DNA from: Synergistaceae bacterium
GTDB taxonomy: Bacteria; Synergistota; Synergistia; Synergistales; Aminobacteriaceae
Direction of reading: 5' to 3'
Assembly (NCBI GenBank): GCA_017439345.1
Contig: JAFSJJ010000016.1
Span: 1 to 64,000, forward strand
Length of the DNA: 64,000 nucleotides
The translations under genes and the position numbers were made by a program. Positions 22,361 to 27,450 of the stretch are shown here, one piece after another. The notes under the pieces were generated by a model. The model saw only the letters and a program-made list of their open reading frames with translations. It was not told the origin of the DNA and searched no databases. The stretch's first letter is position 1. The number at the start of each line of letters is the position of its first letter.

Positions 22361-23683
22361 TTATGCTAACATTGCATCATATAGCGCGTTGATTGCCTTC
22401 ACGTAGTCCGACTCATCGACTCCGACTATGATATTTAACTCATCAGAGCCTTGATCTATCATTCTGACGTTAATATTTGCGTCCGCCAGAGCCTTGAAGA
22501 CTTTTGCCGCTATACCCTTAACGCTGACCATTCCCTCGCCGACGATTGCAATAGCTGATAAATTCTTCTCTATCGTAATGAAATCCGGTTCAAGCTCGTT
22601 CTTAATTTCACGTAAGACAGTCTCACGCTGGGCATCAAATAAATCTGAGCTTACTATAACAGAAATTGTATCTATACCAGTGGGACAATGCTCAAATGGA
22701 ATGCCGTTCTTTGCAAATATAGATAACAGGTGAACGCAAAAACCTGTCTCGCCGTTCATCATGCTCTTTTCGACTCGGACACTGGTGAAGCCCTTACGTC
22801 CTGCTATTCCTGTAACTGCTTTGCGCTTGGCTCTTGCTTCAGGAGGTAACGAGGCCGCTATTAACGTCCCGTGATCTTCAGGTTTATTAGTGTTGCGAAT
22901 ATTAATAGGGATACCTGCTTTTCTGACAGGGAACACTGCATCTTCATGAAGGACACTCGCACCCATGTAGCTTAACTCTCTAAGTTCAGTATATGTTATA
23001 TTCTCGATTACTTTGGGAGATTTAACGACTCTGGGATCTGCGCTTAACATTCCTGATACATCCGTCCAGTTCTCGTATAAATCTGCATTGACCGAGCGCG
23101 CTACTATTGAGCCTGTAACGTCAGAGCCTCCCCTTGAGAAAGTCTTAATGCTGCCATCAGGTAAAGAGCCGTAGAAGCCGGGTATAACTGCATAGTCAAG
23201 AGCTGCTAATCTTTCGCCCATTGCCTTAAAAGTTTTCTTCTCGTTCAGGTGTCCATTATCCTTAAAGAAAATTACTTCTGAAGCGTCAACGAACTCCCAG
23301 CCAAGAAACTTAGCAATTATCTTAGAGTTAATATATTCGCCCCTGCTCGCAGGATAATCAGCAGAAGCTCCGGCAATAATATTTTTCTGTATAGCGTCAA
23401 GTTCTGAGTCAATGTCGAACTCGATTCCCAGTTCACTAATTATTTCGCTGTAACGCTGAGAGATTTTATCAAGAGTCCCTGAGAAGTCCTCGCCGTTAGT
23501 GAATTGCGCATGTAATTTATAAAGCAGGTCAGTAATCTTTATATCATCACTGAATCTTTTTCCCGGTGCAGAAGCTACAACGTAACGCCTGTCAGGATTA
23601 GCGCGGATTATGTCTGCAACTTTCTTAATCTGTGAAGCACTTGCTAGGGAAGTACCTCCGAATTTCGCTGTAATAATACTCAA
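22361..23683 (-). CDS. lysC: Aspartate kinase
   Basis: 440 residues. KFGGTSLASASQIKKVADII at the start is the aspartokinase signature. GGSDVTGSIVARSVNADLYENWTDV and the downstream DPRVVKSPKVI belong to the kinase domain. Two C-terminal ACT domains (GFTSVRVEKS, then IAIVGEGMVSVKGIAAKVF) allow feedback control by lysine or threonine. It phosphorylates aspartate, the first step to lysine, methionine and threonine. It is last in the dap operon, which suggests this copy serves lysine/diaminopimelate synthesis. Confidence 0.95.
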   Translation of the reverse strand: MSIITAKFGGTSLASASQIKKVADIIRANPDRRYVVASAPGKRFSDDIKITDLLYKLHAQFTNGEDFSGTLDKISQRYSEIISELGIEFDIDSELDAIQKNIIAGASADYPASRGEYINSKIIAKFLGWEFVDASEVIFFKDNGHLNEKKTFKAMGERLAALDYAVIPGFYGSLPDGSIKTFSRGGSDVTGSIVARSVNADLYENWTDVSGMLSADPRVVKSPKVIENITYTELRELSYMGASVLHEDAVFPVRKAGIPINIRNTNKPEDHGTLIAASLPPEARAKRKAVTGIAGRKGFTSVRVEKSMMNGETGFCVHLLSIFAKNGIPFEHCPTGIDTISVIVSSDLFDAQRETVLREIKNELEPDFITIEKNLSAIAIVGEGMVSVKGIAAKVFKALADANINVRMIDQGSDELNIIVGVDESDYVKAINALYDAMLA

Positions 23684-23685
23684 GT

Positions 23686-24831
23686 TTAAATCATTCCCCT
23701 GTTAAAATTGCTCACGACAGCAGCATGAACAGCCGAAGCCGTGATTATTGAATCATCATCAGGCAGAAATTTATCACTATGTAAAGGCCATTCACACCCT
23801 GCCCCGATGTGATAAAAGCTGCCCGGTTTATTCATGATAAAGTAGCCGAAGTCCTCAGTTGTCATTAAGGGCTTCTCTATAATCTTCACGTGTTCAGGGC
23901 CTAAAATTTCACATGCTGACTTCTCAACAAGTTTATTCATGTCATCATGATTATTAATTATTCCCGGATAGCTCGTATTAATAAAGCATTCTGACTTTGC
24001 CCCGAACTTGGCCGGTATTTCTTGAGTTAATTTTTCGAGTCTCCTGCACATTTCGGCGCGCTTGTCGACTCCGTAAGTTCTCATAATGCCTCCGAGTTCT
24101 GCACTGCCTGCGATAATATTATTTGCCCTCCCTGAGTGAAATTTTCCAACAGTAACGACTCCGCCGGGAATATTCAGAATTTCAGGTACAAGAGCTGCCC
24201 CTGCCTGAAGTGAGTCGATCCCCTTATCTCTCATAGCTCCGTGTGAAGTCCTGCCGATAATTTTTATATTAAACTCTCCTGAAGCCGCGTAGAAATCTCC
24301 GTACTTAATGCCTACATCTCCTGCCTTAATATTTGGGTCAACATGAGCACCGAATACGGCATCAACACCGTCAAGAGCTCCTGCTTCAATCATTCTGAGT
24401 GCTCCGCCGTCGCCCTCCTCGTCAGGTTGAAATAATAGAGTTACAGAACCGCAAAGGTCTTCGCGATGAGAAGCTAGAATCATTGCAGCCCCTAACACTC
24501 CCGACATGTGGACATCATGACCGCAGGCGTGCATAAAGCCGGGATTCTGGGAAGCGAACTCACAGCCCGTAGACTCGTTTACCGGCAGAGCGTCAATGTC
24601 TGAGCGTAAAGCAGAATTCTTACCCGGTTTAGAGCCTTCGAGCCTTGCAATTATCGCAGTGTCAAGAATTCTTTTATGATCCGTAATTCCTGCATCGTCT
24701 AAAAATTTTTCGAGTAACTCAGCTGTCTTGAATTCGTGATTGCCTATCTCCGGGACTCTGTGAAGCGATTTGCGGATCTCTAGTAATCTCTCACGTAAAG
24801 AATTAGCCTCGTTTAGAAAATCGATTACCAT
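23686..24831 (-). CDS. M20 amidohydrolase, probable N-acetyl-diaminopimelate deacetylase
   Basis: The start MVIDFLNEANSLRERLLEIRK lies directly after the dapH stop (3 bases). Starting further upstream would overlap dapH by 80 bases. The roughly 381-residue protein has the M20 metal motifs ACGHDVHMSG and FQPDEEGDGGA, with HSDKFLPDDDSI near the end. Its place in the operon with dapH fits the acetylase variant of the DAP pathway, where it removes the acetyl group from N-acetyl-LL-DAP. The M20 family also includes hippurate and aminoacyl hydrolases, so the assignment leans on context. Confidence 0.85.
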   Translation of the reverse strand: MVIDFLNEANSLRERLLEIRKSLHRVPEIGNHEFKTAELLEKFLDDAGITDHKRILDTAIIARLEGSKPGKNSALRSDIDALPVNESTGCEFASQNPGFMHACGHDVHMSGVLGAAMILASHREDLCGSVTLLFQPDEEGDGGALRMIEAGALDGVDAVFGAHVDPNIKAGDVGIKYGDFYAASGEFNIKIIGRTSHGAMRDKGIDSLQAGAALVPEILNIPGGVVTVGKFHSGRANNIIAGSAELGGIMRTYGVDKRAEMCRRLEKLTQEIPAKFGAKSECFINTSYPGIINNHDDMNKLVEKSACEILGPEHVKIIEKPLMTTEDFGYFIMNKPGSFYHIGAGCEWPLHSDKFLPDDDSIITASAVHAAVVSNFNRGMI

Positions 24832-24833
24832 AC

Positions 24834-25538
24834 TTATATTTTCCTGAGCGACTGCTCTAACGCTGTCTTGAGTGTAGTATTTGCGTCCTTGTCCTTGATA
24901 ACTTTTGCCGGACACCCTGCTGCGACTTTACCGGCCGGAACGTCTTCGATTACTACTGCTCCTGCTGCTACGACAGAATTTTCACCGATATGAACGCCTT
25001 CAATCACCACAGCATTTGCACCGATCAACACATTATCTTCAACTATGACGGGCTTTGCGCTGGCCGGTTCGATTACTCCTGCTAACACTGCACCTGCTCC
25101 GACGTGGCAGTTTTTACCGACAGTGGCACGGCCTCCGAGAATTGCTCCCATGTCTATCATAGTTCCTTCACCGATGACAGCTCCGATATTTATTACTGCT
25201 CCCATCATGATAACTGCGTTCTTTCCGATTGAGACGTTATCGCGGATTATTGCGCCGGGTTCGATTCTGGCTTGAATATTTTTCAGGTCAAGTAAAGGAA
25301 TTGCGCTGTTACGTGCCGAGTTCTCGATGACTATATCTTGAATCTTGTCCGAGTTAGCTTTGATTACCGGCTCAAGCTCTGACCAGTCTCCGAATATAAT
25401 TTTGCTGCTGCCTGAACCGAAAATTTTTGCGTTAGTCCCTAAGAAGTCAATCTCTTCGCGTTCATTGAGATATATTTTTACGGGAGTAACTTTCTTTGAG
25501 TCAGCGATAAACTTTATAATTTCCTGAGCGTCCATCAT
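24834..25538 (-). CDS. dapH: Tetrahydrodipicolinate N-acetyltransferase
   Basis: 234 residues with a left-handed beta-helix of hexapeptide repeats in the middle ([20 protein letters not shown], then [12 protein letters not shown]). The N-terminal DapH domain is [20 protein letters not shown]. It transfers acetyl from acetyl-CoA to tetrahydrodipicolinate. It sits between dapB and the M20 deacetylase. Either of the two first Met codons could be the start. Confidence 0.93.
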
Positions 25539-25544
25539 GATAAA

Positions 25545-26276
25545 TTACTCACCTGCTATAAAGTCTTTCATGTTATAAAAGCCCGCACTTTGTTTAACGA
25601 GCCACCTTGCAGCCTCCAAAGCTCCCTTTGCGAATAAAGCCCTGTTCTTAGCGTCATGCTTGATCGTTATAGTTTCGAGACCGTTAGAGAAAATTATTTC
25701 ATGAGTCCCTACTTCAGAACCGTAACGCAGTGAATGAATGCCTATTTCTGACGGTGAACGCTTCCCGTTTTCGTGCCTGCCGATGTTGAAACTTGTACCT
25801 TCTCTAGCGTCCTTGATCTCTTCAGCTAACATTAATGCTGTCCCGCTGGGAACGTCTAATTTCTGGTTATGATGAGCTTCGATTAACTCAATATCGCACT
25901 CACCGAATAATTTCGTGACTCTCTTGGCCAAGTCTGCAACCAGAGCTACACCGATTGACATATTGGGGGACTTGAACACGGGAATTTTCTTAGCTGCCTC
26001 GTGAATCTCGTTTAACTCTTCTTGAGTCTGTCCTGTTGAAGCAATTAATACGGGTAAATTTTTCTTGATGCAGTACGTTAATAATTCGTGAGTCGCTTTG
26101 TGATTCGAGAAGTCAATAACGCAGTCAGCTTCACCGGTGAAATCTTCAAGCCTTGAGTATTCGGGAGCAGTAAAAGTTACGTCAACGCGGGCAATAACTT
26201 CCTCGCCCTGAGACTCTGCCATCTCAGAGAGAATATGACCCATTTTACCCCCTGCACCGTTAATTATTATCTTCAT
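25545..26276 (-). CDS. dapB: 4-hydroxy-tetrahydrodipicolinate reductase
   Basis: 243 residues. The N-terminal MKIIINGAGGKMGHIL is the dinucleotide-binding motif. IELIEAHHNQKLDVPSGTAL carries the DapB signature, with catalytic His and Lys. It reduces the DapA product with NAD(P)H. It starts one base after the dapA stop codon, in the operon dapA-dapB-dapH. Confidence 0.96.
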   Translation of the reverse strand: MKIIINGAGGKMGHILSEMAESQGEEVIARVDVTFTAPEYSRLEDFTGEADCVIDFSNHKATHELLTYCIKKNLPVLIASTGQTQEELNEIHEAAKKIPVFKSPNMSIGVALVADLAKRVTKLFGECDIELIEAHHNQKLDVPSGTALMLAEEIKDAREGTSFNIGRHENGKRSPSEIGIHSLRYGSEVGTHEIIFSNGLETITIKHDAKNRALFAKGALEAARWLVKQSAGFYNMKDFIAGE

Positions 26277-26277
26277 G

Positions 26278-27165
26278 CTAGATTAACCCCTGTTCCTGCA
26301 TTAGTGCTTTCAACTTGAGCCAGTGAGCTTCTTCCATAGGAACAAGAGGCATTCTCACATAGTTTTCACAGAAGCCCATTGCTGCCATAGCTGCTTTGAC
26401 GGGAATGGGATTCACTTCGCAGAACAACGCGTTAATCAACGGGAGCATTTTGCATTGAAGAGCCGCCGCGCCCTCGACATCGCCAGCCCAGAATTTATTG
26501 CAGATTTCCATTGTGAGCTTTGGTGCAGGATTCGACAGAACAGAAATAACGCCTTTGCCTCCCATTGAGAGAATCGGGACAATCTGGTCATCATTTCCTG
26601 AGTAAATATCGAGCTTATCACCTACAAGCTGCGCAGTCTTTACGATTTTGCTTATATTTCCGTTAGCTTCCTTAATACCTGCTATGTTTGGGTGATCTGC
26701 AAGTTTCGCGTAAGTTTCGGGTTCGATATTAATTCCTGTTCGTGAAGGGACGTTGTAGAGAATCACGGGCTTTGTTGCAGCGTCTGCTATTGCCGAGTAC
26801 ATTTTGACGAGTCCGTTCTGAGTCGATTTATTATAGTAAGGCGTAACGAGTAAGAGAGCGTCTGCCCCGGCATCACAGCAATATTTCGAGAGCTGTATTG
26901 AGTAACTCGTATCGTTTGAACCTGTTGCAGCGATAATCGGACATCTTCCGGCGACTCTGTCAACTGCAAATTTTACAACTGCTTTGTGGTCTGCGTCATC
27001 AAGAGTCGAGCCTTCACCAGTAGTGCCAGCGATAACAAGAGCGTTAATGCCCTGTTCAACCTGCCAATCGAGAACTTTTGCGAAAGAGTCATAATCAACG
27101 CCCTGAGCATTCATAGGGGTAATCAGTGCCGTAGCAACACCTTTGAAAACTGGTTTACTTATCAT
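26278..27165 (-). CDS. dapA: 4-hydroxy-tetrahydrodipicolinate synthase
   Basis: 295 residues. GVATALITPM, VIAGTTGEGSTLDDADH, VILYNVPSRTGINI (catalytic Tyr) and IAGIKEANGN (Schiff-base Lys) are the expected positions of a DapA TIM barrel. It condenses pyruvate and aspartate semialdehyde. It is the first structural gene of the operon, behind a 34-codon leader and a terminator hairpin. This suggests its transcription is attenuated. Confidence 0.96.
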   Translation of the reverse strand: MISKPVFKGVATALITPMNAQGVDYDSFAKVLDWQVEQGINALVIAGTTGEGSTLDDADHKAVVKFAVDRVAGRCPIIAATGSNDTSYSIQLSKYCCDAGADALLLVTPYYNKSTQNGLVKMYSAIADAATKPVILYNVPSRTGINIEPETYAKLADHPNIAGIKEANGNISKIVKTAQLVGDKLDIYSGNDDQIVPILSMGGKGVISVLSNPAPKLTMEICNKFWAGDVEGAAALQCKMLPLINALFCEVNPIPVKAAMAAMGFCENYVRMPLVPMEEAHWLKLKALMQEQGLI

Positions 27166-27205: not shown

Positions 27206-27233
27206 AAAAAAACCGCCCCTGTGAATGAGCGGT
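27206..27233 (-). terminator. Attenuator terminator upstream of dapA
   Basis: On the minus strand ACCGC (27233-27229) pairs with GCGGT (27216-27212), followed by a run of seven T. It lies 40 bases before dapA and after the leader-peptide stop. Its loop carries TCATTCACA (27228-27220), a perfect complement of a sequence in the leader gene. Confidence 0.75.
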
Positions 27234-27275
27234 CATTACGTGCATTTAATTATAAATTCTCCGTCATCATTCACA
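27220..27275 (-). promoter_or_regulatory. Predicted antiterminator pairing of the dapA attenuator
   Basis: TGTGAATGA (27275-27267), the last codons and stop of the leader peptide, is an exact complement of TCATTCACA in the loop of the terminator (27228-27220), nine pairs plus one G-T. The two structures compete for the same bases. A ribosome at the leader stop would free the terminator. A ribosome stalled upstream at Lys codons would allow the antiterminator. Confidence 0.6.
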
Positions 27276-27371
27276 AGAATATAATAAATAATCACGCTTT
27301 ATCTTGAGAACTTTGACAGACGCGCAGGAAAAGAAATTAACATTACGTTCAAGATTAAGATTGCTTAACAT
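27267..27371 (-). CDS. Predicted leader peptide of the dap operon (34 codons)
   Basis: ATG at 27371 is preceded by AGGAGGAG, a strong ribosome-binding site, about 10 bases away. The 34-codon frame begins MLSNLNLERN and ends YSCE, with two stops in a row (TGATGA). Lys codons 20, 23 and 25 are clustered (VKVLKIKR). The promoter is 50-80 bases upstream, and a terminator follows 33 bases after the stop codon. The layout is that of a transcription-attenuation leader controlled by charged tRNA-Lys. Three Lys codons of 34 is modest compared with classic leaders, so the sensed amino acid remains a hypothesis. Confidence 0.6.
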   Translation of the reverse strand: MLSNLNLERNVNFFSCASVKVLKIKRDYLLYSCE

Positions 27372-27421
27372 AAAAATTTTCTCCTCCTGTATTAATATTT
27401 ACTTAACAAAATTTGCGAGAA

Positions 27422-27450
27422 ATAATAAACGTGAATTTCTATTCTGTCAA
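27422..27450 (-). promoter_or_regulatory. Sigma-70 promoter of the dap operon
   Basis: Minus-strand TTGACA (27450-27445), a 17-base spacer and TATTAT (27427-27422). Transcription would start near 27414 and yield a leader of about 250 nucleotides before dapA. Confidence 0.75.

Follow-up and report, generated by a model that had tools for sequence, protein, structure and literature searches.

A leader upstream of dapA

The window, by which we mean the whole 64,000-nucleotide stretch that we analyzed, comes from a 2.5 Mb genome (G000) whose nearest named relatives are rumen Synergistaceae ("Fretibacterium"-like MAGs). Its minus strand encodes dapA, dapB, dapH, an amidohydrolase, and aspartate kinase, in that order and with little space between the genes. 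The products make diaminopimelate and lysine, and the amidohydrolase is probably N-acetyl-diaminopimelate deacetylase. Judging from their spacing and orientation, the genes from dapA to aspartate kinase are likely to be co-transcribed as a single operon. Just 5' of dapA, at 27450-27206, is a leader; its features and the genes behind it are:

26278..27165, minus strand: dapA, 4-hydroxy-tetrahydrodipicolinate synthase (TIGR00674 equivalog, 329.7 bits, cut-off 206), the first gene of the putative operon
22361..26276, minus strand: the rest of the putative operon, namely dapB (TIGR00036), dapH (TIGR03532), amidohydrolase (TIGR01891), and aspartate kinase (PRK09034)
27422..27450, minus strand: sigma-70-type promoter, TTGACA-17-TATTAT (11/12 consensus matches)
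27381..27388, minus strand: ribosome binding site of the leader peptide, AGGAGGAG
27267..27371, minus strand: leader peptide frame, MLSNLNLERNVNFFSCASVKVLKIKRDYLLYSCE, 34 codons plus TGA
27303..27321, minus strand: segment 1, the codons up to the first control lysine, which pairs with segment 2 (the protector, 1:2; duplex -19.4 kcal/mol)
27297..27305, minus strand: control codons Lys23 (27305-27303), Ile24, and Lys25 (27299-27297)
27260..27279, minus strand: segment 2, the end of the leader frame including its stop, which pairs with segments 3 and 1; its core is TGTGAATGA
27219..27233, minus strand: segment 3, the 5' arm and loop of the terminator, ACCGCTCATTCACAG (duplex with segment 2, -20.1 kcal/mol)
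27206..27234, minus strand: intrinsic terminator (segments 3:4) with a run of seven T (-11.7 kcal/mol, z = -4.4)

The promoter consists of TTGACA at 27450-27445, a 17-base spacer, and TATTAT at 27427-27422, and it is the top promoter-like site of the stretch. The relatives that we inspected have a TTGACA-like -35 box and an A/T-rich -10 box at the equivalent place, and nearly all relatives have a similar ribosome binding site 5' of the start codon. The leader frame runs from an ATG at 27371 to a TGA at 27269-27267, and its lysine codons 20, 23, and 25 start at 27314, 27305, and 27299. The terminator has a stem of 8 bp (27234-27211), and none of 200 shuffled sequences was as stable. The first two of the seven T (27212-27206) belong to this stem. 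Near the end of the frame, TGTGAATGA (27275-27267) is the exact complement of TCATTCACA (27228-27220).

The promoter, the ribosome binding site, the frame with its three lysine codons and its stop, and the hairpin with seven T had all been listed in the original prediction, and all are present. It had also described the complement as matching the loop of the terminator. The match is indeed exact, but it takes in only 7 of the 8 bases in the loop and also reaches the final two of the 5' arm, so it is not confined to the loop.

Distribution of the leader

To examine the distribution of the leader, we built a covariance model from 28 regions upstream of dapA from the same genus. The model found the leader before dapA in 34 of the 43 genomes from the genus, with one copy per genome, and in no other genus among 188 Synergistota genomes. 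Five of the genomes with the leader (G061, G062, G063, G065, and G066) were not used to build the model, and these keep the same arrangement; for instance, CCTTAGAGAATGA is matched by TCATTTTCTCTAAGG in G065. (G063 is nearly identical to G008.) A 35th match, in G034, is weak (E = 0.002) and falls at the 3' end of a gene resembling aspartyl-tRNA synthetase; we disregarded it as a chance hit. When we searched the DNA of 60 relatives with the leader sequence, many weak matches to AT-rich stretches came up by chance, so we used the regions upstream of dapA instead.

G015, G025, and G036 do not have the leader, and some other genomes without a match do not have a close homolog of dapA in their assemblies. 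In G007, the match to the model is split in two by an insertion. This insertion (at L039) is about 105 bases long and lies between segments 2 and 3; both pairing arms are intact. Its last bases, CCCCCGACTTCAGTCGTGGGGAGTATGTCAAG, resemble the terminus of an IS200/IS605-type element. Upstream of dapA in G011 (L043 / L191), GTGAATGACGG and a remnant, GGCCGCCCG, come immediately after the promoter. This genome has apparently lost the leader peptide and the greater part of the terminator by deletion, which would make it a natural experiment: dapA should be constitutive there.

Conservation of the leader peptide

All 34 leaders contain a homologous, intact short frame. All of them have K-[I/M]-K at 7-14 codons before the stop, except for G003, which has G-I-K-R-K. 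The first control lysine is present in 33 of the 34 leaders (encoded by AAG in 28 and AAA in 5), and the second is invariant (AAG in 22 and AAA in 12). In G003, which lacks the first lysine, a lysine codon comes after the arginine. The frame and its lysine codons are thus conserved in relatives, as the original prediction expected, with the exception of Lys20, which leaves Lys23 and Lys25 as the control codons. The second lysine is 21-42 bases from the stop.

Within the K-I-K-R codons, the third positions vary the most (entropy of 0.05, 0.14, and 0.56 at positions 1, 2, and 3), as expected for coding DNA. Across the nine codons that precede K-I-K-R, the difference is small (1.15, 1.19, and 1.33), which fits with these codons also being held by RNA pairing or being weakly constrained. 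Upstream of the motif, the peptide varies in sequence and in length (about 11 to 28 residues). In G002 (L061), an insertion has brought further lysine codons (KIKHDKREKRYTVILP) into the leader, along with a small hairpin that lies after the control codons and before the stop.

Covariation of the pairings

To check if the pairings are conserved, we compared the stability of each genome's own duplex to that of duplexes swapped between genomes, with 20,000 permutations. For segments 2:3, the mean was -18.0 kcal/mol for own pairs and -15.2 kcal/mol for swapped pairs. None of the 20,000 permutations was as good, which is not a strict probability because the genomes are related. A run with 28 sequences had the same outcome. 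Arms that drifted independently should pair just as stably after swapping, which is not what we see. Most genomes have GTGAA/TTCAC, while G030 and G002 have GCGGA/TCCGC, G003 has GAGGA/TCCTC, and G005 has an altered arm, GTGTTCT/AGAACAC. Counting pairs by column in a MAFFT alignment understates the covariation of 2:3 because the loops slide.

In the terminator (3:4), 95% of cells are paired across 28 sequences, and two pairs have changed on both sides. Both of the pairings that were originally predicted, the antiterminator and the terminator, are therefore kept in relatives with compensatory changes. Just 5' of segment 3, alignment columns 110-112 lie in a conserved GCATA, which is often matched by ATGC or GTGC directly behind the T run. 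This is possibly an outer extension of the terminator.

The protector pairing was missing from the original prediction. It joins the codons around the first control lysine to segment 2 (for example, GTCAGCACTCAAG with CTTGAGTGTTGAC in G024). The evidence for covariation is weaker than for 2:3: own duplexes average -15.2 kcal/mol, swapped duplexes average -13.9 kcal/mol, and 19 of 20,000 permutations were as good. The protector's z score was below -1.64 in 20 of 33 leaders, and in roughly one genome in three the pairing is weak. We also considered a different protector, between the codons after the lysines and the stretch after segment 2 (own -10.5 kcal/mol, swapped -8.6 kcal/mol, 1/20,000). 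We set this candidate aside because its z score against shuffled sequences was only -1.0 and 1:2 was better, but this pairing may add to the protector.

A putative lysine attenuator

We propose that the leader is a ribosome-mediated transcription attenuator that couples the expression of the operon, from dapA to aspartate kinase, to the supply of lysyl-tRNA. We consider this very probable. When lysine is short, the ribosome would stall at K-I-K and cover segment 1, which would leave segment 2 free to pair with segment 3; this would block the terminator, and RNA polymerase would read into dapA. With ample lysine, the ribosome would reach the stop codon and cover segment 2, and the terminator (3:4) would form. 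If the leader is not translated, then 1:2 could form, and 3:4 would terminate transcription in this case as well. The comparison of genomes shows a conserved frame with conserved lysine codons, covariation of 2:3, 3:4, and (more weakly) 1:2, and a conserved geometry. We infer that the leader frame is translated, that the leader responds to lysine, and that the response has the direction described above. Having just two conserved control codons, which are not in a run, counts against this proposal, as this is few for an attenuator; the weakness of 1:2 in some genomes and the near-invariance of the arginine codon behind the second lysine also count against it.

To model the switch, we folded the part of the RNA that precedes segment 4 while holding the bases covered by a ribosome unpaired, in each of 33 leaders. 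The mean probability that segment 3 is in the antiterminator was 0.91 with the ribosome at the second lysine, 0.05 with the ribosome at the stop, and 0.67 without a ribosome. In the window's leader, the values were 0.99 with the ribosome at lysine and 0.00 at the stop. This agrees with the original suggestion that stalling at the lysine codons allows an antiterminator to form. When we shuffled the spacer, the antiterminator value fell from 0.90 to 0.30, and 35 of 1320 shuffles were as high. That a ribosome at the stop masks segment 2 follows from the geometry; the finding is that this geometry is kept in all of the leaders.

For the complete RNA, the probability of the terminator was 1.0 in 33 of 33 leaders with the ribosome at the stop, and averaged 0.50 with the ribosome at lysine and 0.86 without a ribosome. 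In some genomes, the complete RNA at equilibrium keeps the terminator even with the ribosome at lysine, so the switch would depend on timing in those genomes.

Alternative explanations

Instead of the codons, the nascent peptide could be the sensor: an arrest peptide, like TnaC or SpeFL, might stall at LKIKR or at Leu-Pro-stop in response to free lysine. In favor of this, the L-K-I-K-R motif shows strong conservation, and the peptides of many relatives terminate in Leu-Pro-stop. However, the residues upstream of the motif vary in both length and sequence, and the window's peptide does not end with Leu-Pro-stop. Also, the conserved residues of the peptide overlap the pairing segments: SCAS and LP-stop coincide with segments 1 and 2, and they are replaced where their pairing partner is replaced (G005, G022, and G027, which have FYGE or FCGE ends). 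We think that an arrest peptide on its own is improbable. A codon-based attenuator that is combined with a lysine-sensing arrest peptide, via LKIKR and, in many relatives, Leu-Pro-stop, seems similarly hard to credit.

The attenuator might sense another amino acid, such as arginine, or the general rate of translation. The arginine after the second lysine is nearly as conserved as the lysines (32/34). Still, lysine is conserved more strictly, the operon serves to make diaminopimelate and lysine, and the arginine codon may be kept by its pairing with the conserved GCA stretch. Overall, sensing of arginine or of translation rate is very doubtful. Chance alone can produce a short frame or a 9-base complement, but a chance frame before an ordinary terminator would not recur with covariation and a consistent geometry in 34 genomes, and we consider this explanation to be refuted for practical purposes. 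It is just as implausible that the leader is a lysine riboswitch or a T-box that we failed to recognize. Lysine genes are regulated by both of these in other organisms, and many other Synergistota have a T-box in front of dapA, but neither the lysine riboswitch (RF00168) nor the T-box (RF00230) matches anywhere in the genome, and the short leader is made up of the frame and the terminator. The lysine attenuator is our preferred explanation, and the comparison supports the original prediction, which read the leader in this way.

Relationship to known attenuators

The well-known attenuators (trp, his, thr, ilv, leu, and phe) are from Proteobacteria, with some from Actinobacteria and Firmicutes. 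Like the leader described here, they have a leader peptide whose control codons match what the operon makes, segments 1:2, 2:3, and 3:4, and an intrinsic terminator before the first gene; our leader would work like a classical attenuator of the trp/his type. What differs is that lysine would be read, that the organism belongs to the Synergistota, and that the two control codons form K-x-K rather than a run.

Among Rfam attenuators, one survey names his, leu, thr, and trp, and it adds ile/val and phe (PMC3766115). In Actinobacteria, no conserved RNA structure was seen before lysine operons (PMC1262725). In Firmicutes, a his leader peptide (hisZ/hisS) replaces the T-box of relatives (PMC2965389); the leader in the window is also found where relatives have a T-box, but it would read lysine rather than histidine, and it is in Synergistota. 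In open-access full texts, which include little from subscription journals, we have so far found no report of a leader-peptide attenuator for lysine (a provisional absence), and no report of any leader-peptide attenuator in Synergistota.

If our proposal is correct, then an attenuator that is found across a genus adds lysine to the amino acids that are read by leader peptides. Synergistota would also join the phyla that use leader-peptide attenuation, as far as open-access papers show. It would suggest how little is needed: two lysine codons, one residue apart.

We looked for further leader peptides in G000 at ilvB and hisG and found none. Nor did G000, whose completeness is estimated at 98%, give any trpE-family match, so it may lack tryptophan synthesis.

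Lysine riboswitches and T-boxes in Synergistota

Lysine is a textbook amino acid for both riboswitches and T-boxes. The lysine riboswitch (L box) resembles the leader in that it places lysine genes under RNA switching, often by premature termination, but it binds lysine directly. Its covariance model has no match in the window or elsewhere in G000, consistent with the original report that no lysine riboswitch was recognized, and is over the cut-off in just 7 of 188 Synergistota genomes.

The T-box model also has no match in G000, yet it does find T-boxes before dapA in other Synergistota. These matches are full length (E = 5e-15 to 7e-8) and are spread across many further genera in the family and the order (loci L147-L149, L151-L153, L210-L212, L214, L216-L219, L221, and L224). 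That many related genera have a T-box at the same place was not part of the original prediction. As proposed for the leader, these T-boxes probably control dapA and sense the charging of a tRNA; by eye, there is AAA or AAG near the putative specifier position. Unlike the leader, a T-box binds uncharged tRNA directly, without a leader peptide.

The DapA proteins that are encoded behind T-boxes are about 42-47% identical to the window's DapA, while some clostridial proteins are about 72% identical to it. Because the T-box-linked dapA is divergent and some clostridial dapA are closer, the genus has a different dapA as well as a different putative sensor. The genus adjoins genera with T-boxes before dapA, and it includes members without the leader as well as one apparent deletion, so it could be a tractable case for studying the replacement of one sensor of tRNA charging by another.

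With scores of 47-75 bits, the T-boxes of these other genera fall short of Rfam's gathering score (93 bits), so the standard threshold misses them.
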